From contig NZ_CP063785.1 of NCBI RefSeq assembly GCF_025860405.1, forward strand, positions 186,001 through 250,000: a stretch of 64,000 bases of DNA. Reading direction: 5' to 3'. Position numbers and translations under genes: made by a program. The notes under the pieces are model-generated. The model made no database searches, was not told the origin of the DNA, and saw only the letters and a list, made by a program, of their open reading frames with translations. The DNA is from Tolypothrix sp. PCC 7712. Lineage in GTDB: Bacteria > Cyanobacteriota > Cyanobacteriia > Cyanobacteriales > Nostocaceae. Shown piece by piece: positions 17,014-55,717 of the stretch (positions are counted from its first letter, which is position 1; each line of letters starts with the position of its first letter).

Positions 17014-20000
17014 TTATGCGTGAAAATTCAAGATGATGCCATCTTTTGCACGCATATAAAGTACTGGTGTAGCAAAGTCGCGTTGATTTAATCCGATTTC
17101 TTGAGAGATGGCGTTGCGGGTTGTTTGGATAGCAGCGTCTACGGGATAGCCGAGAGCCAGGGTGCGGTAAAATTCATCAGCAAAAATCTTGGCGGTGGTG
17201 TCAAAGATAGAATATTGCATCGCAACTACCGCAGGTATTCCCCGTTGTACAAGATTGGGTGCGATTCCGGCAAAGATTTGCTGTTCTGACACCTCTGCGC
17301 CTTTACAGGAATTGAGTACAGCTAACCCCAAGCTACGGTAGCCTAAGAAGAAGTTGGAGAAACTCTCTTCATCCATCAATTTAGCTTGCTTATTGTCATC
17401 TTCTAGGGCAATGTAGCCTTTGTTGTCTTTAAAAACACCATGCCCGATGAAGTGGAATATATTGTAGGGTTTTTCGCGCAGCTTTTGATTAATGTTGCGG
17501 GTGGTAGCTTCTTTGATAATATCTAATTCTATTTGACCTGCTTTGATGTGTGTTTCCAGCGCTGAGTTAATCAGCGTTGCTTCGCCAGTTGCGTCTAATG
17601 GAGCTAAGTCGGTAGGAGATGAAATGACGAGTAGCACTTTTAGGGGTAACTTAGCGGTTATGATATCGCGTTTTTGCAGGGGAACATCAATGTAGCGAGA
17701 AAGCACTGTTTGGATGTTGTTTCCTAAAAAGATATTGGTTTCTGCGTCATAAAGAAATTCCCAGGGGAGTGCGGCTAATTGCGGAGATTGAAATATTAAG
17801 CGCAAACGAACGCTTTCTTGATTTGCTTGTGCCCCTGCCATTGTGGCATGGAAGCGAGCGTTAATTTGGTTGGGAAACAGCGCTTGGTAAAGTTGGTTGC
17901 CTAATCTTTTGAGTAATTTATCATTTGTTTTGTTTAACTCAATCAGTTCTAAGGCTAGTTCAATTTCGTTCATGTCTAAGCGGAATTCACTCAAAGCCTC
18001 ACCTTCTTTTGTTGAAGAGGCGCGAATTTGGTTATTTTTATCAACTAATATTTGAAAATCTTGGTATTTCATCGGCTTTGATTCTGTTTGAGTTGCGGTT
18101 TCGATTGAGGGGGAATGAAAAATTTCATGGTTATAAAATTTGTAACGCTCTTGAATCTTTGAAATTACATACTTTGCATCGTCTACCCCAGTTAATCGTA
18201 ACTTCCACATTTCAGGAAGTATTTCAGAGCTACAGTTTTCTCCTAATGCTTGTGTGGCAGGAATACTCACCCAAAAATCTTGATCGTGCAAAGCCTGAAT
18301 CAATGCTGTTAACGCTTGGCTATCTTTGATTTCTCCTAATGCTTGTGCGGCACTGCTACGCATCTGATAATCTTGATCGTGCAAAGCCTGAATCAATGGT
18401 GCTACCGCCTGGCTATCTTTAATTTTTCCTAATGCTTGCGCGGCAATTCTACGCACAGAAGAATTTTGGTCGTGCAAAGCCTGAATCAATGGTGCTACCG
18501 CCTGGCTATCTTTGATTTCTCCTAATGCTTGTGCGGCAATCCTACGCACATCAGAATTTTGGTCGTGCAAAGCTTGAATCAATGGTGCTACCGCCTGGCT
18601 ATCTTTGATTTCTCCTAATGCTTGTGCGGCAATCCTACGCACATCAGAATTTTGGTCGTGCAAAGCCTGAATCAATGGTGCTACCGCCTGGCTATCTTTG
18701 ATTTCTCCTAATGCTTGTGCAGCAATCCTACGCACATCAGAATCTTGATCGTGTAAAGCTTGAATCAATGGTGCTACCGCCTGGCTATCTTTGATTTCTC
18801 CTAATGCTTGTGCAGCAATCCTACGCACCCAAGAATCTTGATCATTCCAAGCCTGAATCAATGGTGCTACCGCCTGGCTATCTTTGATTTCTTTTAATGC
18901 TTGTGCGGCACTGCTACGTACATCAAAATCTCGATCGTGTAAAGCCTGAATTAATGGTGCTACCGCCTGGCTATCTTTGATTTCTCCTAATGCTTGTGCA
19001 GCAATCCTACGCACAGAAGAATCTCGATCTTGCAAAGCTTGAATCAACAGTGCTACTGCCTGGCTATCTTTGATTTTCCCTAATGCTTGTGCGGCAATGC
19101 TACGCACCCAAGAATCTTGATGATTCAAAGCCTGGATCAATGGTGCTACCGCCTGGCTATCTTTGATTTCTCCTAATGCTTGTGCGGCAATGCTACGCAC
19201 CCAAGAATCTTGATGATTCAAAGCCTGAATCAATGGTGCTACCGCCTGGCTATCTTTGATTTCTTTTAATGCTTGTGCGGCAATGCTACGCACCCAAGAA
19301 TCTTGATCGTGCAAAGCTTGAATTAATGCTACTACCGCCTGGCTATTTTTGATTTCTCTCAGGGCTTCTGCCACACGACTACGCACATCAGAGTCTTGAT
19401 CATGCAAAGCTTGAATCAATGCTGCTACCACCTGGCTATCTTTGATTTTTGCTAATGCTTCTGCCACACGACTACGCACCCAAGAATCTCGATCTTGCAA
19501 AGCTTGAATCAATGGTGCTACCGCTTGTCTATCTTTGATTTTTCCTAATGCTTCTGCCGCACGACTACGCACCCAAGAATCTCGATCTTGCAAAGCTTGA
19601 ATCAATGGTGCTACCGCTTGACTATCTTTGATTTCTCCTAATGCCCATGCGGCAGTTATACGCACATTAGCATCTTGATTTTGTAGTCCATTAGTTACAA
19701 ATGCAAATCCGTGCCCAGAGCGCGTGCTGCCTAAAAACTCCATTTTGATCGCTTCAGAAACTTCTAACTCTAGAATTAAATCAACAGTTTTCTTCTGAAA
19801 CTCTGGCTTTACCTCTCCTGCTAACCTTGCTCCTAACTCTAAATCCACCTCTAGAGCTAACTTCACCACGCCTACTGCTTGCGCTTCTTTCTCCACTAAA
19901 GCCAACATTAGCGCTAAAGGTTCTGTCCACTTTAAATAATTTAGATAATCCCGCTTCAACTTTTCATTACTAATATGGGGAAGCTTCTGAAGTAGGCATT

Positions 20001-21117
20001 CCGCAGCGTAGTATTCCTGAAGCAGCTGGTGGCGAAACTCTATTTTTTCATTGCTACTAATTTGAATTAAATGATGCTTGAGTAAATCTTTCAGCAATTC
20101 TTTGGCGCGAGTAGGCGGATAATCAACTTTCCCTTCCAGAAACTTTGTCAAAATTTCTTCCGCCTCAAGCCTATCAATGATGACTCGCAATTCTGTTGGC
20201 GTTTCTCCTTGCATCATGGTGAAAGCCAATGCTTCCAATGACTGCTTCCACCAGCCGCGCAACTCCTCAACTAATCCAACATCATCTTTAATTTTGCCGA
20301 CATAAAATTGCGTAAACTGTCGAAACACCAAACCTAAATTCGGCGGTATATTGTTTGTTTGTTGAAATAACTCACACAGCATCCACAGCAGCAAGGGCGT
20401 TTCCCCAAAGGAACGCAATCTTTCACCTAAACGCTGTAGCATTTCCTCACCTGTTTCCGGCAAATAGGCGCGGATAAACTGCTGCATCTGTTCTTCGGTT
20501 AGGGGTTGCATTTCCAGCTTTTGCTCAATTCCCAAATCGCCACCTACGCCCAAATCTCGCGTAGTAAAAATCATGGGGGTTTTGGGGTGATTTTCCCGAA
20601 AAGTTTTTAAATCTCGCCTTGCTTCTTTATTGGGTAACTCGTTTACCCCATCCACAAGCAGCAAAAATTGCCGGTTACGCAACAAGGTTTTGATTTCTAC
20701 ATCTAGATATAATCCATGTCGGTGCAAAAAATTTTGGATCAAATCCATCACTGAAGTTGTGTATTGTCGCAACTCCAACAGCACGGGTATGCACCCCGAA
20801 TCGCCTAAATATTTTGCTTTCTCTGCTTCTTCCAACAATAGCCGCGCTAACGCCGTTGATTTGCCTGAACCTGGTTTACCTACAAGTAATACATGATTCT
20901 CTGCATATTTACGTAACCCTTCCTGCACTGGTAAGCGTTCTGTTTTCTCCTGGGTGTCATCTCGTTTGTCTTGCTTTGGCGACACTGTTGCTACCATCAA
21001 GCCCTCAAACGGTGAGTTTTGTCTACGCCCTTCTACATCTGTAATGGTGTACTTTTCCCACCAACATTGGTAAGTGTGGCAGACAGATTGTAGGTATTGT
21101 TGAAAATCAGCGTTCAT
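17014..21117 (-). CDS. NACHT NTPase - HEAT repeat - CHAT protease fusion
   Basis: The 1367-residue protein has a NACHT domain with Walker A GKPGSGKST (80-88) and Walker B LLLVDGVNELP (D156). A helical region follows, then 16 HEAT-like repeats of 31 residues (about 475-965). The C-terminal CHAT caspase-like domain has H1226 (FHFIGHG) and C1271 (LNSCKG). No signal peptide is present, so it is cytoplasmic. The layout suggests a self-contained signal module: ligand binding by the repeats, NTP-driven assembly, then proteolysis. Similar STAND/CHAT proteins act in bacterial immunity and programmed death (family knowledge); this protein's target is unknown. It sits just beside the PARIS-like pair. 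Confidence 0.92.
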   Translation of the reverse strand: MNADFQQYLQSVCHTYQCWWEKYTITDVEGRRQNSPFEGLMVATVSPKQDKRDDTQEKTERLPVQEGLRKYAENHVLLVGKPGSGKSTALARLLLEEAEKAKYLGDSGCIPVLLELRQYTTSVMDLIQNFLHRHGLYLDVEIKTLLRNRQFLLLVDGVNELPNKEARRDLKTFRENHPKTPMIFTTRDLGVGGDLGIEQKLEMQPLTEEQMQQFIRAYLPETGEEMLQRLGERLRSFGETPLLLWMLCELFQQTNNIPPNLGLVFRQFTQFYVGKIKDDVGLVEELRGWWKQSLEALAFTMMQGETPTELRVIIDRLEAEEILTKFLEGKVDYPPTRAKELLKDLLKHHLIQISSNEKIEFRHQLLQEYYAAECLLQKLPHISNEKLKRDYLNYLKWTEPLALMLALVEKEAQAVGVVKLALEVDLELGARLAGEVKPEFQKKTVDLILELEVSEAIKMEFLGSTRSGHGFAFVTNGLQNQDANVRITAAWALGEIKDSQAVAPLIQALQDRDSWVRSRAAEALGKIKDRQAVAPLIQALQDRDSWVRSRVAEALAKIKDSQVVAALIQALHDQDSDVRSRVAEALREIKNSQAVVALIQALHDQDSWVRSIAAQALKEIKDSQAVAPLIQALNHQDSWVRSIAAQALGEIKDSQAVAPLIQALNHQDSWVRSIAAQALGKIKDSQAVALLIQALQDRDSSVRRIAAQALGEIKDSQAVAPLIQALHDRDFDVRSSAAQALKEIKDSQAVAPLIQAWNDQDSWVRRIAAQALGEIKDSQAVAPLIQALHDQDSDVRRIAAQALGEIKDSQAVAPLIQALHDQNSDVRRIAAQALGEIKDSQAVAPLIQALHDQNSDVRRIAAQALGEIKDSQAVAPLIQALHDQNSSVRRIAAQALGKIKDSQAVAPLIQALHDQDYQMRSSAAQALGEIKDSQALTALIQALHDQDFWVSIPATQALGENCSSEILPEMWKLRLTGVDDAKYVISKIQERYKFYNHEIFHSPSIETATQTESKPMKYQDFQILVDKNNQIRASSTKEGEALSEFRLDMNEIELALELIELNKTNDKLLKRLGNQLYQALFPNQINARFHATMAGAQANQESVRLRLIFQSPQLAALPWEFLYDAETNIFLGNNIQTVLSRYIDVPLQKRDIITAKLPLKVLLVISSPTDLAPLDATGEATLINSALETHIKAGQIELDIIKEATTRNINQKLREKPYNIFHFIGHGVFKDNKGYIALEDDNKQAKLMDEESFSNFFLGYRSLGLAVLNSCKGAEVSEQQIFAGIAPNLVQRGIPAVVAMQYSIFDTTAKIFADEFYRTLALGYPVDAAIQTTRNAISQEIGLNQRDFATPVLYMRAKDGIILNFHA
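18236..19690 (-). repeat. Tandem 93-bp repeats coding for the HEAT array
   Basis: About 16 units of 93 bp encode a 31-residue pattern of QAVAPLIQAL...VRRIAAQALGEIKDS type. Units at 18511-18603 and 18604-18696 differ at a single base, so amplification or gene conversion is recent. Confidence 0.93.
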
Positions 21118-28723: not shown

Positions 28724-31522
28724 CTATTGCCAATTCCCCACCAAAACATAAGGTGCCCAATAATAAGGATGCGGTGGTAAATTCTTTAACTGAGGGAACG
28801 GTGGATTTTGCTTCAAAGATTCTAACAGCGATCGCTGGGCGTTTCTGAGTGCGTCTGCTTGTTTGACTCCTGGTTGTTTAAGGTCTTGGTAAAATTGACC
28901 CATGAGTTTGGTGGTGGAAGCATCGCCTACAGGCCAAAGAGTTGCTAGTGTACTACGGGCTCCAGAACGCACCGCCATTCCAGCTAAACCTAAAACTGCT
29001 CGCTCATCGCCAGTCGCAGTTTCACAAGCACTCAGCACAAGTAATTCTATAGCTCTATCTTGTCCCCTCAACAAAGTACTCAACTCATTAATACTGATAC
29101 TTTTCGCATCCCCTGTAATAATAAAATTCCGTTGGGGATTAGAACTAAACAAACCATGAGTTGCGAGGTGAACTACAGGGAAATTTGATTGCAATTGCTT
29201 TTGAATAGTTTTGGCGGTGAATTCTTGATTTAGCAGTTTTTTAGAACTAGGAAAGGTTTGTTTAATTTGGTCTAATTCCTTGGGGACGTTCACCAATGCT
29301 GCAAAATATTCTCCTTGGACTTTCAGTTGCTCGCTCACTCCTGCGGCTAATACTTTTAGCGGTCTCCTTTGCAATTGTTTCGGATTAATTAATTGCAAAC
29401 TAGGAACCAAGGCTACACTATATTTCTCAATTAAATAATTCTGTCCGTTGTAAAGAGCAGCTATTGGTACTCGCTGCAATCTGCCATTTAAGACAAATAC
29501 TAAAGTTTGAATTTGGTTTCTATCTAATTCTGCCTCAAAAGGTTTAATCAGCCAGTTATAAACTTCGCCAAATATTGGTAATAATGTTTGCAGATTATCT
29601 TGGAATTCCTTGGGGTCGGGGTTAGAAGTAAAGACAATATTTCGCGCCGAAGTATTGATACTCGCGTTATCTAAATTATCGTAAAGCTTATCGAGAGTTT
29701 CATTAACTTTTTGTTCGCTGATGGGAATTTTGACTTCCTGCAAAGATTTACCCGGTATCGAAGCGATTACTTCTAAGCGGTCAGGCAAAACTATGGGATA
29801 GATAACAGCTGCGTGGGGGTCAATATTATCAATTTGTACCGCGACATTTGTAGTTTCAGAGCAGGGGTCTTGAAAGAAGTTATCGAGTTCTGCTAGTTGC
29901 AAAGATTCTATGACTCTGCGGGCTAATTCTAAACGTTCTTGGGGTTGTTTAGTGGTTGATTTTTGCTCTTTAAGTCCTGCATTAGAGACGATGAGAGAAT
30001 TTAATTCTTCAGCGCTGAGATTAGATTGCAAAAGCAAATCTACTAATTCCACATAAACAGGTTTGACTTCTTGGATAAAGTCAAACTGTACATCTTGGTT
30101 ATTAGCATTTAAATCGCTACGCAGAGATTGCAAAGTACTAAAAGCGGCGGTGTAAGCTGCGATCGCACCTTTGGGATCTCCTTGGCTGCGTAATAATCTC
30201 CCTAACTGAGATTGCCAAAGATAAGTAACTTCCCGCGCATCACCGTTAATATTTTGTTCTTGGGCTAACATCAGCGCTTGTTGGGTAAGTGTTGTAGCCT
30301 GGCTGAATTTTCCTTGCTTTTGATACAGTTTACCCAAGTAGCCCAAAGCGTAACTTTCAGCTTGCCGATCCTGGAGATTACGCGCTTGTTGCAGTGCAGC
30401 ATTTAATACTGGTTCAACTTTGTCTAATTGTTCGCTTTGCATCAAAGATTCGGCAAAGTTGATTTGGGCATAAATTGCAGCGCGACTGGGAGGAAGATTA
30501 CCCAATTGCGATGCAATTTCACCTTGCAAAGCTTGTGCATCTTGGTTTAACGGTAACCGCAACTGCGAGAGAAAATCTTGCGCCCGTTGAATTAAATCAG
30601 CTTCATTAAATCTCGTCCAAGAACCGATACGGCGTTGCGTCTGTTCGCCCCACCATTTTTGAATATCTAGTAATAATTGAAGGTGATTTAGTTGAGCTTG
30701 AATTTTAGGAATTGCTGGGGCTGATGCTAATTTTGCTCCTTGGCTATAGTAGTTAAAAGCTTGCTGATAAGGTGCTAGTGCATCCGCCAGAGATTTGCGA
30801 TCGATAATTTCCGTAACTGCATCATAATCCCAGCGATCGCGGCTTTGGTTTCCTAATAGGCGTTGAGTATTTCCTAAACTCAGCAGCACCCCACTTTTAG
30901 CAGGTGATTCTCCCATTGCGGATAGACTCAACTGCAAAATTTCTTGTGACTGTTGTAAGAATCCCTGCTTGCGGAGAATATCACCCAGGCTATGTAAACC
31001 AATTCCTTGAGTAAGAGACAAAGAACCTTGTTGTTGAGCAAAGGTTTTTTGAACTTCGTCGATTTGATTGGGACGACAATCTGGGTTTTTAATTGCTAAA
31101 GCTTGCAATACAGTCTTACAAGCGGTGGGATAAAGCCCCAAATCTTGCAAAGCCTGAGACTTATTGATCAGACTCTTACTCATCCCCTCGCGATCGCCCA
31201 CTTTTTGATAAGCCTCAGCCGCCCTTTGCCATAACTTCGCTGCTGCTTCTAATTGTCCCGCATTGTAGCGCTGTTGCCCTTCTCGAGCTAGGTCTAGGGC
31301 TGGGGATTGGGGGGACTGGGGACTGGGGACTGGGGATTGGGTAATGGGTAATTGGTAATTGGTAATTGGTAATTGGGTAGTCGATAATTTTTCTAGTTCT
31401 TGGGAGTTCCTAAGTTGTTGACTACCAGAATTTGACCAAGCAGGAATACTCAAACTAGATAACAAGCCCAATAAAGCCGAAAGTATAAAAACTAATAAAC
31501 GACGATATTTTTTATAAAACAT
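28724..31522 (-). CDS. Exported TPR-CHAT protein, third gene of a two-partner-secretion operon
   Basis: The 932-residue protein starts with a signal peptide (LLVFILSALLGLLSSLSIPAWS), then TPR-like repeats (about 75-470). The C-terminal CHAT domain has H789 (HLATHGLF) and C833 (LSACETATGDERAVLGLAG). CHAT domains are caspase-like peptidases; the His-Cys pair is intact. Export puts it outside the cytoplasm, unlike the NACHT-CHAT protein. Between signal and first repeat lies a low-complexity segment (about residues 52-74, ITNYQLPIT then PSPQSPQSP) encoded by in-frame heptamer repeats. It lies 98 bp downstream of the TpsB-like gene on the same strand. A role in processing the secreted exoprotein is inference. 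Confidence 0.9.
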   Translation of the reverse strand: MFYKKYRRLLVFILSALLGLLSSLSIPAWSNSGSQQLRNSQELEKLSTTQLPITNYQLPITQSPVPSPQSPQSPALDLAREGQQRYNAGQLEAAAKLWQRAAEAYQKVGDREGMSKSLINKSQALQDLGLYPTACKTVLQALAIKNPDCRPNQIDEVQKTFAQQQGSLSLTQGIGLHSLGDILRKQGFLQQSQEILQLSLSAMGESPAKSGVLLSLGNTQRLLGNQSRDRWDYDAVTEIIDRKSLADALAPYQQAFNYYSQGAKLASAPAIPKIQAQLNHLQLLLDIQKWWGEQTQRRIGSWTRFNEADLIQRAQDFLSQLRLPLNQDAQALQGEIASQLGNLPPSRAAIYAQINFAESLMQSEQLDKVEPVLNAALQQARNLQDRQAESYALGYLGKLYQKQGKFSQATTLTQQALMLAQEQNINGDAREVTYLWQSQLGRLLRSQGDPKGAIAAYTAAFSTLQSLRSDLNANNQDVQFDFIQEVKPVYVELVDLLLQSNLSAEELNSLIVSNAGLKEQKSTTKQPQERLELARRVIESLQLAELDNFFQDPCSETTNVAVQIDNIDPHAAVIYPIVLPDRLEVIASIPGKSLQEVKIPISEQKVNETLDKLYDNLDNASINTSARNIVFTSNPDPKEFQDNLQTLLPIFGEVYNWLIKPFEAELDRNQIQTLVFVLNGRLQRVPIAALYNGQNYLIEKYSVALVPSLQLINPKQLQRRPLKVLAAGVSEQLKVQGEYFAALVNVPKELDQIKQTFPSSKKLLNQEFTAKTIQKQLQSNFPVVHLATHGLFSSNPQRNFIITGDAKSISINELSTLLRGQDRAIELLVLSACETATGDERAVLGLAGMAVRSGARSTLATLWPVGDASTTKLMGQFYQDLKQPGVKQADALRNAQRSLLESLKQNPPFPQLKNLPPHPYYWAPYVLVGNWQ

Positions 31523-31620
31523 AGTTTTGTTATTTGGTATTTATTATTGGTTATTTCCCCTTTCCCCTTTCACCCTTCACCCTTCACCCTTTCCCCCTTC
31601 CCCCTTTCCCCCTTCCCCCT

Positions 31621-33519
31621 TTAAAACGCTTTATACTCCAATTGAAAATACAACCCATTGTCTTGCCATGTGCGCTTGTCGGTATCAATACTCACTAAAG
31701 GAATCCCCCAATCGAGGCGGGCTGTAAATTTATCGCCCATTTGCCAGAGTAAGCCTAATCCTAAGCCTGCGAGTGTGTTGGGGCTGGAGTTTTCTCTGCC
31801 TGTATTCCATACAGTACCGACATCGATAAATGGGGCTACTTGTAAAGTTCCTTGCACTTGTGGGAAACGGGCGACGGGTAAACGCAATTCGGCGGATGCG
31901 AAAATGCCGTTATCGCTGAGTAATGTATCTTGGCGATAACCGCGCACTGTTCCTTGTCCACCTAAACTAAATTGTTCAATGGAAAGTAGAGAGTCACTGG
32001 CTAATTGCACATTAGAACGTAACAATAATGTGGGTGCGATCGCACCTTGGGTTGAGGGTGTACCAAGGAGGCGTAAATATATCAGCTGTCCCCGCCAGAG
32101 AAAATATCTACTATCTGGTTCGTTATTATTAATCGTGGCATCAAAAGCCCCAATCCCAACGTTAAACTCGGAACGCGCGGCTAATACTTCTTTCCGGCTG
32201 CGTTGTAGCCATTCTTGAGCAAAACTCAATTCGCTGATTCGCGTTTCTCCTTGATCGTTAGCACCAGGAAATAGGGGAAACTTTACACCTTGAATCGAAG
32301 AAAAACTTTCCCTTCTGGCGGCTGAGAAACTAAGTGTCAGTTCTTGACTGAATTCTGGTGTCGCCCTTTGGATGACGGGTTGACGATAAGTTAGTTCAAA
32401 TTCCCGCGAATTCACCTCAATATCCAAATCATTGAATGGCGGTTCCACGATGCGGTTGTCTGTGATGCGGTAGTTAAAGCCAATGGTGCCATTGCGAGCA
32501 TTTATAGGTATAGTGTAGCCACCTTCATATTGATTGCTACCATCGGTATTACTGTAGGAGACACTCAACTTATCTCCTATTCCCAGCAGGTTAGCTTCTG
32601 ATAAGGTGATACCACGCTCAAAACTACCGACGCTGGGGTTGCGATTATTATTGAGGTTGACTTGGGCATTAAATGTTCTGGCACCTTTGACATTTACCGC
32701 CAAAGAATTCACACCAGGCCTAGTACCAGCAGTTAATTCCGCATCCAAACTCTCAATTAAAGGATTGAGTTGCAATATTTGCAAAGCTTCCTGTAACTGA
32801 TTGATATTCAGAGGTTTTTTTGCGCCTAAAGCAATTCGACTGCGAATATAATTTGGGTTCAACCGTCCTTTCGTAACGTTGACTTGAATATCTTCTAAAC
32901 TGCCTTCCACCACCTGAATTTTGATGATTCCAGAACGGAATTCTTGACTCGGTATGTAAGCACCAGAGGTAATGTAACCCTTTTGGACATACAGTTGAGT
33001 GATTTGATTCGCCGCTTGCAGAAGTTGGGCAAAGGCGATGGGTTTATTGGTAAAATCTGCGATCGCCTGACTTAATTCTGCTTGGCTAAATGCTGTATTC
33101 CCCACAAACTCAAACTGCTTCACTGTGATATTCCCCGGAATATCACGCACTTCATCGGGTGATGGTGGCGCTGTGGGTGGTATTTGAATCGGTGCAGGTT
33201 TTGGTGTTGGCGGTAGAGGCTGAGGTGGTGGTAGTTCTGGCGGCTTTGGCGTTACAGGCTGTGGCGTTACAGGATTAGTTGTTTGTCCCAGCACAGAGGT
33301 TGTCTGATGTAGTAGAGTCACCAGCACCATTAAGGAAAGATACGGAGATAAAGAAAATTTCGGTTTCCTCACACTCGCACTCAATGGCAGTTTTTGACAA
33401 CGGTTAACAGATGACGTACCACCTGAGATCAATGGAAACAACATTGGTAATTCAATCCCTTTCCCCTTTTTCCCTTCTCCTTTTCCCCCTATTTCTCCCC
33501 AATTCTGTTTAATTTGCAT
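31621..33519 (-). CDS. ShlB/FhaC/HecB-type TpsB outer-membrane transporter
   Basis: The 632-residue protein translocates a TpsA exoprotein across the outer membrane. A signal-like segment (SLMVLVTLLHQTTSVLG) comes first, then a proline-rich linker (PPELPPPQPLPPTPKPAP). The POTRA domain follows (VKQFEFVGNTAFSQAELSQ ... YIPSQEFRSGIIKIQVVEG). The C-terminal half is a beta-barrel ending in an aromatic residue (YFQLEYKAF), with the FSLGGQGTVRGYRQDTLLSDNG motif of Omp85/TpsB proteins. The ATG overlaps the end of the TpsA gene by 11 bp. The long N-terminal stretch before the signal (GGKGEGKKGKG) is encoded by purine-rich repeat DNA; the true start may be further in. Confidence 0.92.
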   Translation of the reverse strand: MQIKQNWGEIGGKGEGKKGKGIELPMLFPLISGGTSSVNRCQKLPLSASVRKPKFSLSPYLSLMVLVTLLHQTTSVLGQTTNPVTPQPVTPKPPELPPPQPLPPTPKPAPIQIPPTAPPSPDEVRDIPGNITVKQFEFVGNTAFSQAELSQAIADFTNKPIAFAQLLQAANQITQLYVQKGYITSGAYIPSQEFRSGIIKIQVVEGSLEDIQVNVTKGRLNPNYIRSRIALGAKKPLNINQLQEALQILQLNPLIESLDAELTAGTRPGVNSLAVNVKGARTFNAQVNLNNNRNPSVGSFERGITLSEANLLGIGDKLSVSYSNTDGSNQYEGGYTIPINARNGTIGFNYRITDNRIVEPPFNDLDIEVNSREFELTYRQPVIQRATPEFSQELTLSFSAARRESFSSIQGVKFPLFPGANDQGETRISELSFAQEWLQRSRKEVLAARSEFNVGIGAFDATINNNEPDSRYFLWRGQLIYLRLLGTPSTQGAIAPTLLLRSNVQLASDSLLSIEQFSLGGQGTVRGYRQDTLLSDNGIFASAELRLPVARFPQVQGTLQVAPFIDVGTVWNTGRENSSPNTLAGLGLGLLWQMGDKFTARLDWGIPLVSIDTDKRTWQDNGLYFQLEYKAF

Positions 33520-36500
33520 GGCAGTTAGATGAAGGTAATCCAGAACTATAGGGACTAGCAGATGGTGCTTGACTGGCGAGAACTAATACTCCTTGGCTAT
33601 TGACATACCAACCGCGTGCTGGCTCTGGCAGTTGTGCAGTACGATTAACTTCTGTAGCAGCGCTAGGAACAGCAGGTTCAAAACTGACTAAAGCTCCACT
33701 ACTGAGGGCTTCACTGGGACGGGGTGGTAATCCCCCACGTCCAGTAATCGTAAATTCACTCCGCGCTTGTCTGGCTGTGGCTCGACAAGCTTGTGCTACC
33801 ACCTGTTCTGGTTGCGCTACTTCTTGGGGAATATCCACAATTTCAAAGTTACTTTCTGCTTCTGGTGTAATAATTGTGATTTCACCAGCTACCCCCAGTG
33901 CAGAACTGGCACTAATCTGGCATTCTGGACAGGCAAATAACCCTCTGGTGTTGATGCTAATGTTTCCCCCCCTACCCTGAAAAGCATCGGCGGTAATTTT
34001 ACTACCTTCTAGTAGCGCCACGAAGTTAGCCGGACTAAAACCAGTAATGGTAATGTTACCCCCATTACCACTGCCACCTGCGGTAGCAGATATCTGGCTG
34101 TTATGGCGCATCAGCAAAGTTCTCGTTTGCAGGTTGATGTTGCCACCTTCACCAGATGTAGTGGTTGCAGAGATGGTGCCTTGATTATCTAAAAAGATGG
34201 AGTTAGCGACAACTTGCATATTACCTGCATTGCCAGGGCCTAAACTTTGTACGTCAATTTTGGCACCATCTCTCACAATCAGTTTTCCGGTAGATATGCT
34301 GACATCACCAGACGCACCTGTCGCTGGTAGTTCGGGTAAGTTAGCACGTCCCGCCGCCGCTGAGATACCACCCAGCACTAAATCGCCAACTTTGGTGCCG
34401 CTAAGTTCAATTGACTCTGAGGCGTTGACAGTTAATGTTCCCCCTTTCCCTGCACCCAAGGTAGCAGTTGATGCATCTGCCCCATCACGCAGAATCAGTT
34501 TCTTAGTAGAAATCGTTAAGTCGCCGGAGCGAGATGCGCTAAACCCTGTAGTACCCAAACCGCTAGGAAATCTCGCATCAGGTAAAATACCAGCAATTTC
34601 TACAGACTCAGTGGCATTAACTATGACATTCCCCCCAGTACCACCAAAGGGAATCACACCAAATGGCAGGGAACTGCCTGTATTACTACCAATTACTCCA
34701 TCTTCTACAAATAGTTTGCCTGTATCAATTCGCAAATCGCCGCCCTGTCCTGTACCAAAGGTAGTGTTAGTGTAGATCCCTGTTAACAATGCCGCACCGG
34801 GTGGCGTTCTCTCTATTTGCACAGAATCACTGGCTTTGATCAATACATCCCCACCTGCACCATTGCCTAAGGTGGGACTAACAATTGTACCGCCATCTTG
34901 CAATCTTAACTGCTTGGTATCAATGATAATGTCACTAGCTGTACCAGTACTGCCACGGACATTTCCGGTTTGAATAGCAGAACCATTCACATCTACAACA
35001 TCGCTGGCGCGGATATTGACGGTTCCTCCTATTCCTGAGGTGAATGTGGGACTAAAGATAATCCCGCCATTCTGCATCTTGAGGGAGCGAGTCTCTAGAT
35101 TGAGGTTACCAGAAGTACCTGCACCCACAGAGCCAATAAATATGCCAGTGCCTCTATCGGTGGGTTTCAGCGTTCCTAATAAAGCTCCCACCTGAAAAGT
35201 ACCTTGGAACTCAGCAAATCCAGTACCTACTATGTCGATAGAGTCAGCAGCGCGGATATTGAGGTCTCCACCTTTACCTTCACCATAGGTAAGTGCAGAG
35301 AAAAACGAGCGATCGCTCATTTTTAATTTACCTGTATCAATCGTTAAGTTACCGGCTGCTCCTGCACCTAAATTGTCACTAGATATCTGGCTGCTACCAG
35401 ACATCTCTAAGGTATCTTTGACTTTTAAATCAATGGTGCCACCTTTACCCCCAGTAGTTACTGCGGTAATGCCACCTTGATTATTCAGCGAAATTGAGTC
35501 AGCATTGACTCGCAGCGTCCCTGCATCCCCTGAACCATCATTCCTCACAGTCGCTTGTGCCCCATCTGTAACTGTGAATCTTCCTGTGTTAATTGTTACG
35601 TCTCCCGATGCCCCACTGGGTACAGGCGGCACCCTTAATAACTGTTGCAAAGTGGGATCGACAATATTTGCAGAGGAGATAATCAAACTAGGATTGACAG
35701 AGCCGGAGACTTTACCACTCAAATCTACTGACTCTTTCGCATTAATGGTAATGCTGCCAGCTGGGCCACTTGCTAAGGTCGAAGCATCAATTCTGCCGCC
35801 ATCTTTGATGACTACACGCTCGGTATTAATTGCCACACTACCTGCCTTGCCTGGGCCAGCAGTGCCAGCAGAAATGGCGCTGGGTGTAAAAACACCTGGT
35901 GCAACACCAATTAACTCCACTAATTTATCAGCATTTATATTGACATTCCCACCAGAACCAGTACCACCAACTGTTACTGATGTAATCGTCCCTCCAGATA
36001 AGGCACTCAATTGTGTGGTTGAGATTGTGAGTCTGCCAGCATCACCAGCACCAAAAGTTGCCGCAGTAATATTAGTAAACCGACTAAGGTTAAAAGGTGA
36101 AAAGCCAATTACCTGCACAGATTGATCGGCATTGATATTAATATTGCCACCGGGAGCTGCCGTGTAGGTAACCGCAGAAATAGCAGCACCATCTTGAATG
36201 ACTAGGCGCGGAGTGAAAACATTAATATCTCCGCTTTTACCAGCGCCCAGAGTTTCGGTAAATAAGTTGCTAGAGATTTGCCCATTGGTGGTAGTACCCA
36301 CTAATGTTAAGGAATCAGTAGCTTTCACATTGATGCTACCAGCTGATTGCGTTCCTTGGGTTTGAATTAATACTACCGAACCGTCGCGAATACCAATGTT
36401 GCGTCCCTGCAACTGAATTGAGCCGCTACCAGGGCCGCTAGTATCAGCTAATGCTTTTTGAGATAAAGAAATATCCCCAAAATTGCTCACACCTTGATAA

Positions 36501-37273
36501 CCTAAATTCCAGCCTTGAGCATTAGGATTGAGGCTGACTAGACCACCTGCGACGCTACCTAAATCAATGCGTCCGCCTTCAGCTGTCAGTGTACCACCCT
36601 CGGAAATAATTCCTCCGCCTACCAAAGCTAATGTATTACCAGGTTTCACTTTTAAGCCATTAGTAGCGCCCCTAGTGAAGGGCGAGAAAATGGGACTTTG
36701 CAGTGAGATATTATGTCCCTGTCCTTGCAGTCTAATAGCTGCCGGATTTTGCCCAAATTGCAAACCCACTGGCACGCTAATTGTTAGTAACGGGGGAGTG
36801 GCAATATTTTTAGCACCAAATTCTGCACCATCAGCAAATTTGACACTCTCCGCCGTACTTGCCAAAAATGAACCCCCAATATTCAGTTGGGCATTGGCAC
36901 CAAAATTAATCCCACTGGGGTTAATCAGGATAAAATTTGCACCATAATTTTCTCTGATTAAACCATCAATATTAGAAATTGAACCACCTGTGACGCGGTT
37001 GATGATGTTAGTAATGTTATTTAAATTTGTGTTGTTATTGAAAAAAGCCTCGCCGCCAGTGGGTACAGAAAATTCCCGAAAGCTATGGAAAAGGTTGCTA
37101 CCTACTTGCGAACCACCAGTAATTTCATAGATGTTACTAGCAGAACCAGAAATATTCACCTGAGTACCAACGCTGCTATCTGCAGAAATTTGTGCAGAGG
37201 CATAGTCAGCAGCAAATACGCAGCACAGGTAAACACTACAGGTAATCAAAATTTGGCGAGGAACTTGTTTCAT
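33509..37273 (-). CDS. TpsA exoprotein with filamentous-haemagglutinin N-terminal domain
   Basis: The 1254-residue protein has a signal peptide ending near ADYASA. The TPS domain follows (about 28-270), containing FNNNTNLNNITNIINRVTGG and the INPSGINFG motif recognised by TpsB. The central part is a parallel beta-helix of imperfect repeats rich in GSGNGGN, SIDLSG and GKLIVRDGA, coding for fibre stacking. A cysteine pair (FACPECQ) and a variable tail occur near the C-terminus. It is secreted to the cell surface or medium through the TpsB encoded next. Such fibres act in adhesion or contact-dependent interactions; no toxin domain is seen at the C-terminus. Confidence 0.93.
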   Translation of the reverse strand: MKQVPRQILITCSVYLCCVFAADYASAQISADSSVGTQVNISGSASNIYEITGGSQVGSNLFHSFREFSVPTGGEAFFNNNTNLNNITNIINRVTGGSISNIDGLIRENYGANFILINPSGINFGANAQLNIGGSFLASTAESVKFADGAEFGAKNIATPPLLTISVPVGLQFGQNPAAIRLQGQGHNISLQSPIFSPFTRGATNGLKVKPGNTLALVGGGIISEGGTLTAEGGRIDLGSVAGGLVSLNPNAQGWNLGYQGVSNFGDISLSQKALADTSGPGSGSIQLQGRNIGIRDGSVVLIQTQGTQSAGSINVKATDSLTLVGTTTNGQISSNLFTETLGAGKSGDINVFTPRLVIQDGAAISAVTYTAAPGGNININADQSVQVIGFSPFNLSRFTNITAATFGAGDAGRLTISTTQLSALSGGTITSVTVGGTGSGGNVNINADKLVELIGVAPGVFTPSAISAGTAGPGKAGSVAINTERVVIKDGGRIDASTLASGPAGSITINAKESVDLSGKVSGSVNPSLIISSANIVDPTLQQLLRVPPVPSGASGDVTINTGRFTVTDGAQATVRNDGSGDAGTLRVNADSISLNNQGGITAVTTGGKGGTIDLKVKDTLEMSGSSQISSDNLGAGAAGNLTIDTGKLKMSDRSFFSALTYGEGKGGDLNIRAADSIDIVGTGFAEFQGTFQVGALLGTLKPTDRGTGIFIGSVGAGTSGNLNLETRSLKMQNGGIIFSPTFTSGIGGTVNIRASDVVDVNGSAIQTGNVRGSTGTASDIIIDTKQLRLQDGGTIVSPTLGNGAGGDVLIKASDSVQIERTPPGAALLTGIYTNTTFGTGQGGDLRIDTGKLFVEDGVIGSNTGSSLPFGVIPFGGTGGNVIVNATESVEIAGILPDARFPSGLGTTGFSASRSGDLTISTKKLILRDGADASTATLGAGKGGTLTVNASESIELSGTKVGDLVLGGISAAAGRANLPELPATGASGDVSISTGKLIVRDGAKIDVQSLGPGNAGNMQVVANSIFLDNQGTISATTTSGEGGNINLQTRTLLMRHNSQISATAGGSGNGGNITITGFSPANFVALLEGSKITADAFQGRGGNISINTRGLFACPECQISASSALGVAGEITIITPEAESNFEIVDIPQEVAQPEQVVAQACRATARQARSEFTITGRGGLPPRPSEALSSGALVSFEPAVPSAATEVNRTAQLPEPARGWYVNSQGVLVLASQAPSASPYSSGLPSSNCHAN

Positions 37274-37329
37274 TTTCTACAGAGGAGAATAAACCCCACG
37301 TAAACTTTACTTAAAATTTACTTAAAGCT

Positions 37330-37366
37330 TTTTTTAGGTTGAATTTCAGTAAATTCAACTAAAAAA
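37330..37366. promoter_or_regulatory. Palindrome between divergent TpsA and COP23-family genes
   Basis: GTTGAATTT-CAGT-AAATTCAAC forms a perfect 9-bp stem, flanked by a T run on the left and an A run on the right that extend the pairing. It lies 57 bp from the TpsA start and 61 bp from the COP23-family start. It may be an operator for both genes or a bidirectional terminator. Confidence 0.5.
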
Positions 37367-37426
37367 ATAATAATATTGAGTCTATATGCAACTGTAATTT
37401 TCGGTCAAGAAAGGAAGTCAGTAAAA

Positions 37427-37951
37427 ATGAGCAAAAACCACTCTTGGTTGACAATGGGAACAGTTCCGCTTTGGGCTTTAGGAGCAGTAGCGGCCTTCTC
37501 TGTACCCAGTACAGCCACCAGCACAGTAGAAGTTAGCTGTCGGAATGATGGTAGTACTCCTACGGTAGTTGTTACTTTACTTCAAGAAAACACTACTAAA
37601 GAACACACTCTTTTTAAATTTCTGCCCCAATATTTCTCTGACGAAGATGCTCTAAAAACCTGTCAGAACGCAGCTACAAATTTACAGGCTGTTTATGACA
37701 AAGGCACTTCTCAATATTTGACAACTGACAAGCTCAATGGTCAATCTACCGTGTGTGCCGTAGCCCGTAGAGGTGTTGGTTGCGATCACTATAGTGCCCA
37801 GCTTTTATTTACTTTCCAACCTACAGATAACCCCTCTCAAGCTCTGTACGCCATTTTAGGTAATGATTTCAAGCAAGTACAAGCTCCTGATGTGCGGACT
37901 ATTAGCCGTATATATACGGATACCAAACCTTCTTGGTGGCCATTTAAATAA
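37427..37951 (+). CDS. COP23-domain protein (circadian oscillating protein family)
   Basis: The 174-residue exported protein has a signal-like start (WLTMGTVPLWALGAVAAFSVPSTA). The COP23-type domain has its conserved cysteines: VSCRNDG, ALKTCQNAA, STVCAV and GCDHYSAQLLFTFQP. COP23 was described as a membrane protein with a circadian rhythm in a unicellular cyanobacterium (family knowledge); its biochemical role is unknown. I use the ATG at 37427 because AAGGAAG lies about 10 bases before it; a TTG 17 codons earlier is open but lacks support. The gene is divergent from the TpsA operon. Confidence 0.82.
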   Translation: MSKNHSWLTMGTVPLWALGAVAAFSVPSTATSTVEVSCRNDGSTPTVVVTLLQENTTKEHTLFKFLPQYFSDEDALKTCQNAATNLQAVYDKGTSQYLTTDKLNGQSTVCAVARRGVGCDHYSAQLLFTFQPTDNPSQALYAILGNDFKQVQAPDVRTISRIYTDTKPSWWPFK

Positions 37952-52150: not shown

Positions 52151-55100
52151 ATGCTACATAAAAATATATATATTCATGCAGTTGTGATTATTATTACAAC
52201 CATACTTAATCCCTTTGTAGGCAATTTATCTCCTTTTTTCAATGCACCTCAAGCAGTAGCACAAACTGCACAAGAAAGGAAAAGACAAGCTGATATTTTG
52301 CGACAAAAAAAAGATATAGAATCTTTGCAAGCAGCTTTAACTATTTATCAAGAAATTGGAGACAAAGAAGGAATAGTTGCGGCACTGCAGATGCTAGCAA
52401 AGAGGCATCGATATCAAAAGGAATATGTAAAAGAAATTGCCTATTTGCAACAAGCTTTAGTGATAGTAAAGCAACTGCAGCAACCAGAAAAAGAATTGGA
52501 AGTTTTGGAAGCGATCGCTAATTATTATAGAGGACAAGATAACTATGCTAAAACTATTGAATCTCTTCAGCAAATGTTAGCATTAGTACGCCAAATTAAT
52601 CACCCTGAAAGAGAGTTTAATTACCTAGCTCGTATTAGCCGTACTTACAGTTTGCTCAAAGATGATGCTAAAACTATTGAATCTCTTCAGCAAATGTTGG
52701 TGTTAGCGCGTCGCATTAATAACCAGGATAAAGAGTTAACAGTTCTCCAGGAATTAGCTGCGGCTTACGGTCAGAACAACTATACTCAAGCAATGGCTTA
52801 CTATCAGCAAGTTTTAGTACTAGCAAAAAAATTGCAAAAACCAGATATAGAGTTGCAAGTTCTCACAAGGCTAGTTAATATTCATGGTTATATTGGTGAT
52901 GAAGCTAAAGTTGGTAAATACGCACAACAAAGTCTAGCCTTAGCAAGGCAACTACCAAATAAAGAGCGGGAATTAGAAGTTCTTAAAGATGTAGCTTTTG
53001 CCTACCAAATCATTAAAAATTATCCCAAAGCTATTGATTACTATAAGCAAACTTTAGCTTTAGCAAAACAACTAAATAAAGAAATTATAGAGAGTCAAAC
53101 CCTACAAAAATTAGTACGGTTATTTGTAAAGATTGAAGACACAAATCAAGCAGATATATATGCACGTGCTGTTCTCATGTTAGCACAAAACAAATCACAA
53201 ACAAATCAGACTTTAGAGGTTTTGAATGAACTAGCCTGGGCTTACTATTCTGGAGGAAATTATCACAAAGGGCTGGAATATCTTCAGCAAATGCTTTCTC
53301 TAGCACAAAAGTCACAAAATCAAAAACAAGAATTAGAAGCGCTTAACGATTTAGGTAAATTTTCTGATTCTTTAGAAGACTATGCCAAAGTTATTTACTA
53401 CTATCAGCAAAGGCTAAAAATCGCCCGAAATACACAAAATCAGGAGATAGAGTTGGAGACTTTAAAATCTCTAACTAATGCTTATTTGATTTTAGGAGAT
53501 TATGTCAAAGCAATTGATTACGAACAGCAAATTTTAACTGTAGGCAGGAAGTCCCAAGACCGGAAAATAGAATTGGAATCGCTGAGGTCTCTAGGTAGTA
53601 TTTACAGCAATTTTGAAGATTATTATCAAGCAATTAACTACTATCAGCAAAGTTTAGCTGTAGCACGACAACTGAAAAATCGTGAAGCCGAAAGAATGCT
53701 GGTTGCAGATATAGCATCTGGATATTTTTCATTAAAAAACTATACCAAGGCACTGGAATATTTTCAGCAAAGTTTAACATTAGCGCGGCAAGAGAAGTTT
53801 AAGGGATTAGAAGTATCTCAATTAAGAGAGCTAGGTGATTTTTATTTAGCTAGAAAAGACTCCGTTAAAGCCATTAGCTACTTTCAACAAGCTTTAGAGG
53901 TAGCGCGACTAGATAAAGAATCCAAAGGACTTAATGAACAGTCTGCCCTCGAAACACTAGGTTATGCTTATCTTGAACTTGGAGACTATACTAAAGCAAT
54001 TAGCTATGCCCAACAAAGTTTAGAAGTCGCGCAGAAAATCACTAAAATATATAGTGAAGATGTAGTATCTAGCAGCTTAATTCTCTTAGGAACTATCTAC
54101 TACGAACAGGGGAACTACAACCAATCCCTTAAATATGCTCAAAAACTTTTAGAAATCGAAAATCTCACAGAAAAATTAACTACTAATTCTCAGTGGCAAT
54201 CTTTAAGAAATTTAGGAATTTCTCTAGCTGAATCTGGTCATTTCACAGCAGCAGAGAAAAAACTACGTGCGAGTATTCAACAATATGAATCTGGCAGAAA
54301 AAAGCTAAACAATAATCAAGCCTATAATGATACATACAAAGTATCTTCTTTTGAGGATATCATTGATTCTTACCGGACTTTACAAAAAGTACTCATTGCT
54401 CAGAATCAGCCGCAATCAGCTTTAGAAATTGCCGAACAGGGACGTAGCCGCGTGTTTGTTGATTTATTAGCCAAGCGGTTATTGTCTAAGCAAGCTACTC
54501 CAGTAAGTCTTCAGCCATTAAATATCTCTCAAATTCAGCGAGTTGCTCAACACCAAAAAGCCACAATAGTTGAATATTCAATTACTAGGAGATATTGGTC
54601 AGATACTTGGAATCCACAACAATCAGAATTATATATTTGGGTTGTCAAACCTACAGGAGAAATTATATTTCGGCAAGTTGACCTTAAATCTCTGAAAACT
54701 CCTCTTAAAGATTTGATTCGCCAAACTCGTCAACTAATTAACCAAGGTAGAGGTAGTAACAAAAATAATCTGACAATCAAACAACTAGATAATCCCGAAG
54801 CACCGCCAATCAAAGATGTGGTTTCTCCAGTTGAGTCTTTGCGTATCAATCACCGCAGCTTACAGCAACTCCATCAACTACTCATTGCACCTATTGCTGA
54901 TTTACTACCAAATGATCCTGATTCCCATGTAATTTTCATTCCTCAAGATGAACTCTTTCTTGTACCTTTTCCTGCGTTGCAAGATGCACAAAGCAAATTC
55001 TTAATAGAAAAGCATACGATACTGACCGCCCCAGCCATTCAAATTCTTGACCTAACCCATCAACGGCGTAAGCTGAATCGTAGAGATAAAAGTGCCTTGG

Positions 55101-55717
55101 TGGTAGGTAATCCTACGATGCCAAAAGTATCTTTTGTGCCGGGGCAATCTCCAGAACAATTATCACCTTTACCAGAAGCAGAAACAGAAGCGCAGTTAAT
55201 TGCTCAGATGCTAGGTACTAAGGCTTTGATTGGCAATCAACCTACTAAAGCAACTGTGATATCAAAGTTACCAAAAGTCAACATCATTCATCTAGCTACT
55301 CACGGCTTACTGGATGATAGACGTGGCTTAGGAAGTAGTATTGCTCTAGCGCCTGATGTCGAAAAGCAGGAGGGTAACGGTAATGGTTTACTGACTGCTG
55401 ATGAAATTCTCAATTTACAGCTAAATGCTGAATTAGTCGTTCTCAGTGCTTGCGACACTGGCGCGGGTAAGATTACAGGTGATGGGGTAATTGGTTTATC
55501 TCGCTCGTTTATTTCTGCTGGTGTTGCTAGTGTGTTGGTTTCTCTCTGGGCTGTACCGGATGCGCCGACAGCATCGTTAATGACTGAATTTTATCGCAGT
55601 TGGCAACAGCAACCAGATAAAGCTGCTGCACTGCGTCAGGCAATGTTGGTAACGATGAAACAACACCCTCATCCTAAAAATTGGGCGGCTTTCACTATTA
55701 TTGGTGAGGCAGAGTAG
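52151..55717 (+). CDS. Exported TPR-CHAT protein
   Basis: The 1188-residue protein starts with a signal-like segment (HAVVIIITTILNPFVGNLSP ... AVAQT). About 20 TPR-type repeats follow (about 45-740), with a typical pattern YAKTIESLQQMLALVRQ. A linker leads to a C-terminal CHAT domain with H1051 (IIHLATHGLLDD) and C1101 (VVLSACDTGAGKITGDGVIG). The His-Cys pair is intact. Regions of near-identical DNA between repeats (for example 52548-52580 and 52668-52700) indicate recent duplication. It has no secretion partner next to it, unlike the gene at 28724. Target and signal unknown. Confidence 0.92.
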   Translation: MLHKNIYIHAVVIIITTILNPFVGNLSPFFNAPQAVAQTAQERKRQADILRQKKDIESLQAALTIYQEIGDKEGIVAALQMLAKRHRYQKEYVKEIAYLQQALVIVKQLQQPEKELEVLEAIANYYRGQDNYAKTIESLQQMLALVRQINHPEREFNYLARISRTYSLLKDDAKTIESLQQMLVLARRINNQDKELTVLQELAAAYGQNNYTQAMAYYQQVLVLAKKLQKPDIELQVLTRLVNIHGYIGDEAKVGKYAQQSLALARQLPNKERELEVLKDVAFAYQIIKNYPKAIDYYKQTLALAKQLNKEIIESQTLQKLVRLFVKIEDTNQADIYARAVLMLAQNKSQTNQTLEVLNELAWAYYSGGNYHKGLEYLQQMLSLAQKSQNQKQELEALNDLGKFSDSLEDYAKVIYYYQQRLKIARNTQNQEIELETLKSLTNAYLILGDYVKAIDYEQQILTVGRKSQDRKIELESLRSLGSIYSNFEDYYQAINYYQQSLAVARQLKNREAERMLVADIASGYFSLKNYTKALEYFQQSLTLARQEKFKGLEVSQLRELGDFYLARKDSVKAISYFQQALEVARLDKESKGLNEQSALETLGYAYLELGDYTKAISYAQQSLEVAQKITKIYSEDVVSSSLILLGTIYYEQGNYNQSLKYAQKLLEIENLTEKLTTNSQWQSLRNLGISLAESGHFTAAEKKLRASIQQYESGRKKLNNNQAYNDTYKVSSFEDIIDSYRTLQKVLIAQNQPQSALEIAEQGRSRVFVDLLAKRLLSKQATPVSLQPLNISQIQRVAQHQKATIVEYSITRRYWSDTWNPQQSELYIWVVKPTGEIIFRQVDLKSLKTPLKDLIRQTRQLINQGRGSNKNNLTIKQLDNPEAPPIKDVVSPVESLRINHRSLQQLHQLLIAPIADLLPNDPDSHVIFIPQDELFLVPFPALQDAQSKFLIEKHTILTAPAIQILDLTHQRRKLNRRDKSALVVGNPTMPKVSFVPGQSPEQLSPLPEAETEAQLIAQMLGTKALIGNQPTKATVISKLPKVNIIHLATHGLLDDRRGLGSSIALAPDVEKQEGNGNGLLTADEILNLQLNAELVVLSACDTGAGKITGDGVIGLSRSFISAGVASVLVSLWAVPDAPTASLMTEFYRSWQQQPDKAAALRQAMLVTMKQHPHPKNWAAFTIIGEAE

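Follow-up and report, generated by a model that had tools for sequence, protein, structure and literature searches.

The window analysed here is a 64,000-nucleotide stretch of the cyanobacterium Tolypothrix sp. PCC 7712 in which a two-partner secretion (TPS) operon, encoding an exoprotein (TpsA) and its outer-membrane transporter (TpsB), is followed on the same strand by the gene of a predicted exported CHAT peptidase with tetratricopeptide repeats (the TPR-CHAT protein). We found that genes of this type are linked to TPS genes across cyanobacterial genomes, that they occur in the same genomes as a conserved C-terminal tail of TpsA and that they are repeatedly fused to TpsA directly behind this tail. 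The TPR-CHAT protein is very probably a dedicated partner, functionally linked to the tailed TpsAs of cyanobacteria. As for its activity, we predict, with a confidence that is about evenly balanced, a periplasmic separase-like cysteine protease which cuts the two-cysteine tail and so releases or matures TpsA at TpsB.

Organization of the operon

TpsA (33509-37273, minus strand, as are the two genes that follow; 1254 aa) comprises a signal peptide, a TPS secretion domain (residues 27-288, 36410-37195; PF05860, 209 bits), a beta-helix, whose strands appear when the last 254 residues are modelled, and the C-terminal tail. TpsB (31621-33519) carries POTRA_2 (PF08479) and the ShlB barrel (PF03865), and a TpsA with TPS domain and beta-helix, adjoining its cognate TpsB, identifies the pair as two-partner secretion (type Vb). 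The TPR-CHAT protein (28724-31522, 932 aa) contains TPRs and a CHAT domain (residues 653-930, 28733-29566; PF12770, 209 bits against a cut-off of 24). By this score and by an intact dyad, His789 (29156-29158) and Cys833 (29024-29026), both assigned by family, the domain is a CHAT peptidase (clan CD) with predicted proteolytic activity. A preliminary description of the window had claimed a signal peptide for this protein; its N-terminus (predicted signal peptide at residues 1-31, 31430-31522) fits by eye, with KKYRR followed by about 18 hydrophobic residues, and export is predicted from hydropathy. The coordinates and strands given there for these three open reading frames (ORFs) and for a divergent COP23-family ORF were confirmed, and the Pfam families agree. 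The 11-bp overlap of tpsA and tpsB that it reported is present when the start of the longest ORF is taken, but it is not conserved: among 15 orthologous loci with both genes, three close relatives have an overlap, and in the other 12 the genes are about 50-580 bp apart. The real start of the window tpsB is probably downstream of the listed ATG.

Linkage of CHAT and TPS genes

The genome of the window (G000; 10.1 Mb, 16 contigs) has 92 CHAT, 38 TPS and 12 POTRA_2 matches, three of the last scoring as other Omp85 proteins. In a rotation test on this genome, with distances taken from domain midpoint to domain midpoint and 8.7 Mb used for the 9.0-Mb contig, nine of 22 TPS clusters lay within 8 kb of a CHAT where 2.6 were expected (p 6e-4), and so did six of the 12 POTRA_2 matches where 1.2 were expected. 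There was no excess of TPS clusters at 3 kb (1/22, with 1.2 expected), because the midpoints of neighbouring genes are more than 3 kb apart. TPR-CHATs of the window type were found within 10 kb of TPS or TpsB in nine of 11 cases (a 374-bit pseudogene being included as TPR-CHAT in this count only), compared with 2/52 for other CHATs of the same contig, a comparison that omits two TpsA-CHAT fusions and 27 CHATs on other contigs, which have no TPS match.

The preliminary description had made the association depend on whether the three genes are often adjacent in other genomes, and this adjacency turned out to be common. A scan of genome contigs found 20 related loci, 15 of which keep the order COP23 (divergent)-TpsA-TpsB-CHAT; in L027, TpsB and CHAT are present as far as the contig reaches, L016, also cut by a contig end, is too short, and L032 is a fragment. 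In one orthologous operon (L030, 2585-8009) tpsA is interrupted by about 1.7 kb of sequence foreign to the gene. We also searched for ShlB (PF03865) in 30 genomes of the order and took 60 of the 87 strong matches (at least 65 bits, outside G000), from 26 other genomes, as regions of up to 20 kb each, which were annotated with hidden Markov models built from sequences of the present analysis; 20 control regions were placed at round, not random, positions in seven genomes. CHAT was present in 32 of the 60 TpsB regions (within 6 kb of TpsB in 28, touching or fused in 14) versus one of the 20 controls.

Eight loci (L116, L131, L144, L152, L159, L163, L165 and L167) share an overlap of exactly 49 nt between the ORFs of tpsB and chat. 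That this overlap is meaningful is doubtful: the MARKR start of CHAT arises from the WQENG codons at the end of TpsB, read in another frame, and for this reason the start codon may be wrong.

The TPR-CHAT family

In a midpoint-rooted tree of 75 CHAT domains, whose rows were partly picked for nearness to TPS genes, 49 rows form a group (100/90), 48 of them TPS-linked. One part of this group consists of 41 TPR-CHATs (98/84), the other of eight CHATs (100/100), six of which are fused to a TpsA without a tail. Outside the group are 26 rows, with one linked CHAT (L094) among them. Because the rows had been partly chosen for linkage, we ran a profile of 26 full-length TPR-CHATs (A4) over the 30 genomes as a check independent of linkage. 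Above a clear score gap, at which the threshold of 390 bits was set by eye, there were 116 members. Of these, 84 lie within 15 kb and 67 within 5 kb of a listed TPS or TpsB; reading the regions of the remaining 32 (for two G000 members the earlier scans of that genome were used instead of separate regions) added 12 with TPS, TpsB or tail, giving 96/116 linked.

The His and Cys of the dyad do not vary among 66 aligned orthologs or among 26 diverse members, and their motifs are retained in 83 of 85 members. An odd case is L145 (11071-17593), where a TpsA gene with collagen-like repeats overlaps a CHAT ORF in another frame; in this CHAT part Gln and Ser replace the catalytic His and Cys.

When the PDB was searched by sequence, the matches listed for the single protein and for profile A4 (60 of 146 for the profile) covered the TPR part, and a comparison of folds was needed. 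The predicted model of the TPR-CHAT protein has a Csx29/separase-like fold with Csx29 as the best fold match; Foldseek's own ranking was headed, at low TM-scores, by the anti-sigma factor DdvA, by separases and by ciliary proteins.

Two other CHAT proteins are encoded in the window. One (17014-21117, 1367 aa, encoded on the strand of the operon at a distance of about 8 kb) is a NACHT-HEAT-CHAT protein of NLR-like architecture with a different CHAT; the other (52151-55717, 1188 aa) belongs to a CHAT branch without TPS linkage. Since the latter also begins with a hydrophobic stretch, the signal peptide was rejected as a hallmark of TPS-linked CHATs.

A conserved tail of TpsA

After the end of its beta-helix the window TpsA continues into a tail (residues 1117-1254, 33512-33925) that is mostly predicted to be disordered: an AlphaFold2 model of the C-terminal 254 residues, from an alignment of 18 sequences, has the beta-helix followed by 117 residues with a confidence score (pLDDT) below 50. 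The window tail, the new element found here, has no match in Pfam or NCBIfam. Tails of this kind run from the beta-helix end to a Cys, which 10-20 residues separate from a TGRGGLPP-like motif; a variable linker then leads to a short motif with G-W and G-L and to a near-terminal Cys. By alignment, the window tail has these elements at C1163 (33785-33787), at residues 1177-1184 (TGRGGLPP, 33722-33745) and at C1251 (33521-33523), four residues from the C-terminus.

The tail is present in 60 of 67 complete unfused TPS ORFs, and four of the seven exceptions are fragments of broken genes. In 67 aligned tails the first Cys and the Gly of the motif are both found in 67/67 and the Arg in 51/67; the second Cys is found in 59/59 where aligned, and a Cys lies within the last 15 residues of 65/65 unfused tailed TpsAs. 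Beyond residue 30 the only cysteines of the window TpsA are 1115, 1118, 1163 and 1251, so that C1163 and C1251, 88 residues apart and flanking the motif, give an otherwise nearly Cys-free exoprotein the C-terminal pair that is the sequence feature of an HMW1-type anchor.

The motif is a candidate recognition or cleavage region. Separase, the eukaryotic protease, is described in passages of PMC4626109 as cleaving cohesin after Arg, with acidic S1 residues modelled for this Arg. We rejected the Arg of TGRGG as a fixed P1 site, given its absence from some of the tails, and two candidate S1 acids were rejected as well: the residue at or beside E731 is often acidic in the main branch of the CHATs and of mixed kind in a side branch, and D867 is kept in nearly all of 26 rows (L152 lacks it and in L163 it is displaced), giving no clear switch. 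Tails without the Arg largely accompany CHATs of the side branch, with the exceptions of L116 and L171.

Co-occurrence and fusions

A tail profile (A3) and the TPR-CHAT profile were run over the same genomes. In the 30 genomes of the order, tail and TPR-CHAT were both found in the same 25; among the five genomes without them, G012, G013 and G021 have TPS domains (1, 3 and 8, respectively) and neither a tail nor a TPR-CHAT of 390 bits, and G011 and G027 have no TPS. In 98 genomes of the phylum, a set that partly overlaps with the former, 27 have both, one has the tail only (G068, one weak match), none has TPR-CHAT only and 70 have neither. In each genome the best first-look candidates were scored (at most 31 with A4 in the 30 genomes, at most nine and at most 40 in the phylum scans); copy numbers from the scan with nine are lower bounds, and a low-ranking member could escape in a genome counted as without. 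The genome tallies are complete, while individual matches are the best ones listed. Copy numbers of tail and TPR-CHAT correlate with a rho of 0.90 (0.84 as a partial correlation given genome size), and those of TPS and TPR-CHAT with 0.77. G000 also has two arrays (L108 and L111, on G000:C1 at about 4.33-4.35 and 4.79-4.81 Mb) in which six to seven tailed TpsA genes stand in tandem.

A protein search seeded with L169, a TpsA-TpsB fusion, and hence biased to fusions, gave 293 matches; the 120 listed comprise 62 TPS-tail, 45 TPS-tail-TpsB and 10 TPS-tail-CHAT proteins, plus one each of TPS-tail-TpsB-CHAT, tail-TpsB and TPS only. With the TPR-CHAT profile the 10 TPS-tail-CHAT proteins reach 597-1125 bits (P0191 has a weak tail match), and L200 is another such ORF, with 975 bits. 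In all 11 the TPR-CHAT follows directly after the tail, whose first Cys alone remains. The tail was also found in 3/3 TpsA-TpsB fusions and in one ORF joining all three proteins, and in 0/6 direct TpsA-CHAT fusions. Its presence at both the TpsA-TpsB and the TpsA-TPR-CHAT junctions means that the tail sits wherever a cut would part the fibre from the pore or from the protease.

The single TpsA-TpsB-CHAT ORF (L169/P0121) was dropped as a topological proof of a periplasmic CHAT, as it probably reflects one small frame change in a draft genome: a normal TpsB C-terminus is found in the neighbouring frame. Single TpsA-CHAT proteins without the tail and with low TPR-CHAT profile scores also exist (L093 3813-10130, L099 6420-11531, L115, L120, L125, L133, L223-L228); those present in the tree form a separate CHAT subgroup, and these proteins are possibly a cargo-type or self-cleaving variant.

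Proposed mechanism and known systems

In the mechanism that we propose, TpsA would pass through TpsB up to its disordered, disulfide-closed tail, which would halt in the periplasm and anchor the fibre in the way reported for HMW1, HxuA and CdrA. The CHAT protein would bind the region of the tail with its TPR solenoid and cut it there with its His-Cys site, so that the beta-helix would come free. The preliminary description had supposed that the CHAT protein processes or releases the fibre, or reacts to contact. The first half of this claim is the better supported one, because the conserved tail tracks the CHAT protein and lies at fusion junctions, although the cleavage is itself conjectural; for a reaction to contact we found no support, no test having been aimed at it. 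With slightly less confidence than for tail cleavage, falling a little short of an even chance, we suggest a three-partner system of exoprotein, pore and separase/caspase-class protease, in which the protease would recognise the Cys-TGRGGLPP-Cys tail and cut the fibre in response to a signal, and a single protease would serve several fibres of a cell.

In HMW1 and HxuA of Haemophilus, passages of PMC5422565 and PMC8151025 describe a disulfide-closed C-terminal domain of TpsA that remains in the periplasm. The cyanobacterial TpsA has a cysteine pair at the same place, presumably forming a disulfide as well; unlike theirs, the pair C1163/C1251 spans 88 residues and encloses the TGRGGLPP-like motif. 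In CdrA of Pseudomonas aeruginosa, C-terminal cysteines hold TpsA at the surface and periplasmic LapG, which is under c-di-GMP control, cuts near the C-terminus, according to passages of PMC11898600 and PMC5422565. An anchored TpsA and a periplasmic release protease would be common to both systems. The cyanobacterial candidate differs from LapG in being a TPR-CHAT protein, encoded beside tpsB; the LapG family is transglutaminase-like, and a Pfam scan of the TPR-CHAT protein at E 1e-3 gave TPR and CHAT models only. SphB1 of Bordetella likewise releases a TpsA (FHA) from the cell surface by proteolysis, but, unlike the window protein, it is a subtilisin autotransporter whose gene lies away from fhaB-fhaC.

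Csx29, the TPR-CHAT protease of Craspase, is described as RNA-activated inside a CRISPR effector complex; the window protein differs from it, having a predicted signal peptide and scoring 22.2 bits with the NCBIfam Csx29 model against a cut-off of 300, so that it is not a member of that family. HetF of Anabaena, the namesake of CHAT, also combines CHAT and TPR in a cyanobacterium, but acts in cell division and heterocyst formation, and passages of PMC8406250 draw no tie to secretion. Caspase-like releasing peptidases of other toxin export routes appear in passages of Zhang et al. 2012 (PMC3482391), where the T5SS row names HINT only. Among the open-access papers searched, none has 'CHAT domain' together with 'two-partner secretion' or 'filamentous hemagglutinin', other wordings and most subscription journals being outside this search.

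One family of the numerous CHAT proteins thus gains a concrete and testable candidate substrate, the tail of the accompanying TpsAs. If the proposal is true, it would explain the role of a set of bacterial separase-like proteins outside the cytoplasm and offer a way into the question of how cyanobacteria attach and detach. TPS would moreover gain a dedicated maturation protease encoded next to it; according to a 2017 review (PMC5422565), the genes of maturation proteases do not seem to belong to TPS operons.

Alternative explanations

Several observations weigh against tail cleavage by a dedicated protease. CHAT is absent from 28/60 TpsB regions, 20/116 TPR-CHATs have no TPS gene in reach (several of them at contig ends), and in the orthologs L026 and L029 the available flanks of the CHAT gene contain no TPS genes. 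In G000, 10 TPR-CHATs stand against 36 tails, and its second TpsA array (L111) is more than 40 kb from any CHAT, also with no TpsB within 40 kb; many cuts would therefore have to be made in trans, or, in terms of the three-partner system, one protease may serve several fibres. The co-occurrence is not independent of the linkage, because the genes are often neighbours, and tail and CHAT could occur together as parts of a single anchoring module that involves no proteolysis. No single P1 residue is obvious, because of the variable Arg, and shared ancestry explains the pairing of non-Arg tails with the side branch equally well. Finally, a cut within the disulfide loop would leave the two chains joined unless the thread then slips out.

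The TPR-CHAT protein might instead be mainly a periplasmic holder or chaperone, its TPR gripping the TpsA tail and keeping the fibre on the cell, with a CHAT site rarely active or directed at another target. TPR solenoids are binding modules, and in 11/11 TPS-tail-TPR-CHAT fusions the folded TPR-CHAT occupies the place of the second cysteine, like a bulky plug; however, occasional loss of the dyad would then be expected, and its retention across the family makes this explanation unlikely. We see a somewhat smaller chance that the fibre is a sensor and that contact or damage frees the CHAT protease to cut other envelope proteins in a stress or death response, as with Csx29 in Craspase. Csx29 is indeed the top fold match, and the genome, with its many CHAT matches, and the window, with its NACHT-HEAT-CHAT and further CHAT proteins, would suit such a role, but the element found to track the protease is the TpsA tail (no systematic search for other recurring neighbours was made).

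That CHAT is an exported cargo, passing TpsB and acting outside the cell or on neighbours like a CdiA-type effector, would agree with the separate subgroup fused directly to tail-less TpsA. For the unfused TPR-CHATs it is improbable, since they lack a TPS domain, are predicted to have a signal peptide of their own and would consequently stop in the periplasm. The adjacency might also be mere hitchhiking of two large gene families, as the 92 CHAT and 38 TPS matches of G000 make some neighbours expected and there is no excess at 3 kb of midpoint distance; at the level of linkage, however, this is refuted by the rotation tests at 5-10 kb, the one-sided spread among CHAT families, the joint occurrence of TPR-CHAT with the tail and the recurrence of fusions, and we consider it hardly credible.

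The divergent COP23 gene and the intergenic region

The COP23-family ORF (37376-37951, plus strand; PF14218, 63 bits against a cut-off of 27), whose first in-frame ATG is at 37427, is a conserved neighbour in the ortholog group. It is bound to this group and lies outside the general system, because COP23 was found in 2/60 of the surveyed TpsB regions. These two TpsB/TPR-CHAT regions (L113 and L131) are outside the ortholog group, and the remaining surveyed regions gave no COP23-family ORF at the sensitivity used.

Promoter and terminator scans gave no signal above chance level. The palindrome described earlier between COP23 and tpsA is real (37330-37367), with arms at 37330-37346 and 37351-37367 that are 88% complementary; its core is partly preserved across 11 orthologous loci aligned with the window, and it is a possible operator. 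Adjoining it is a direct repeat, TTTACTTAAA (37305-37326), of which, among the 11 aligned relatives, the three closest alone have both copies.

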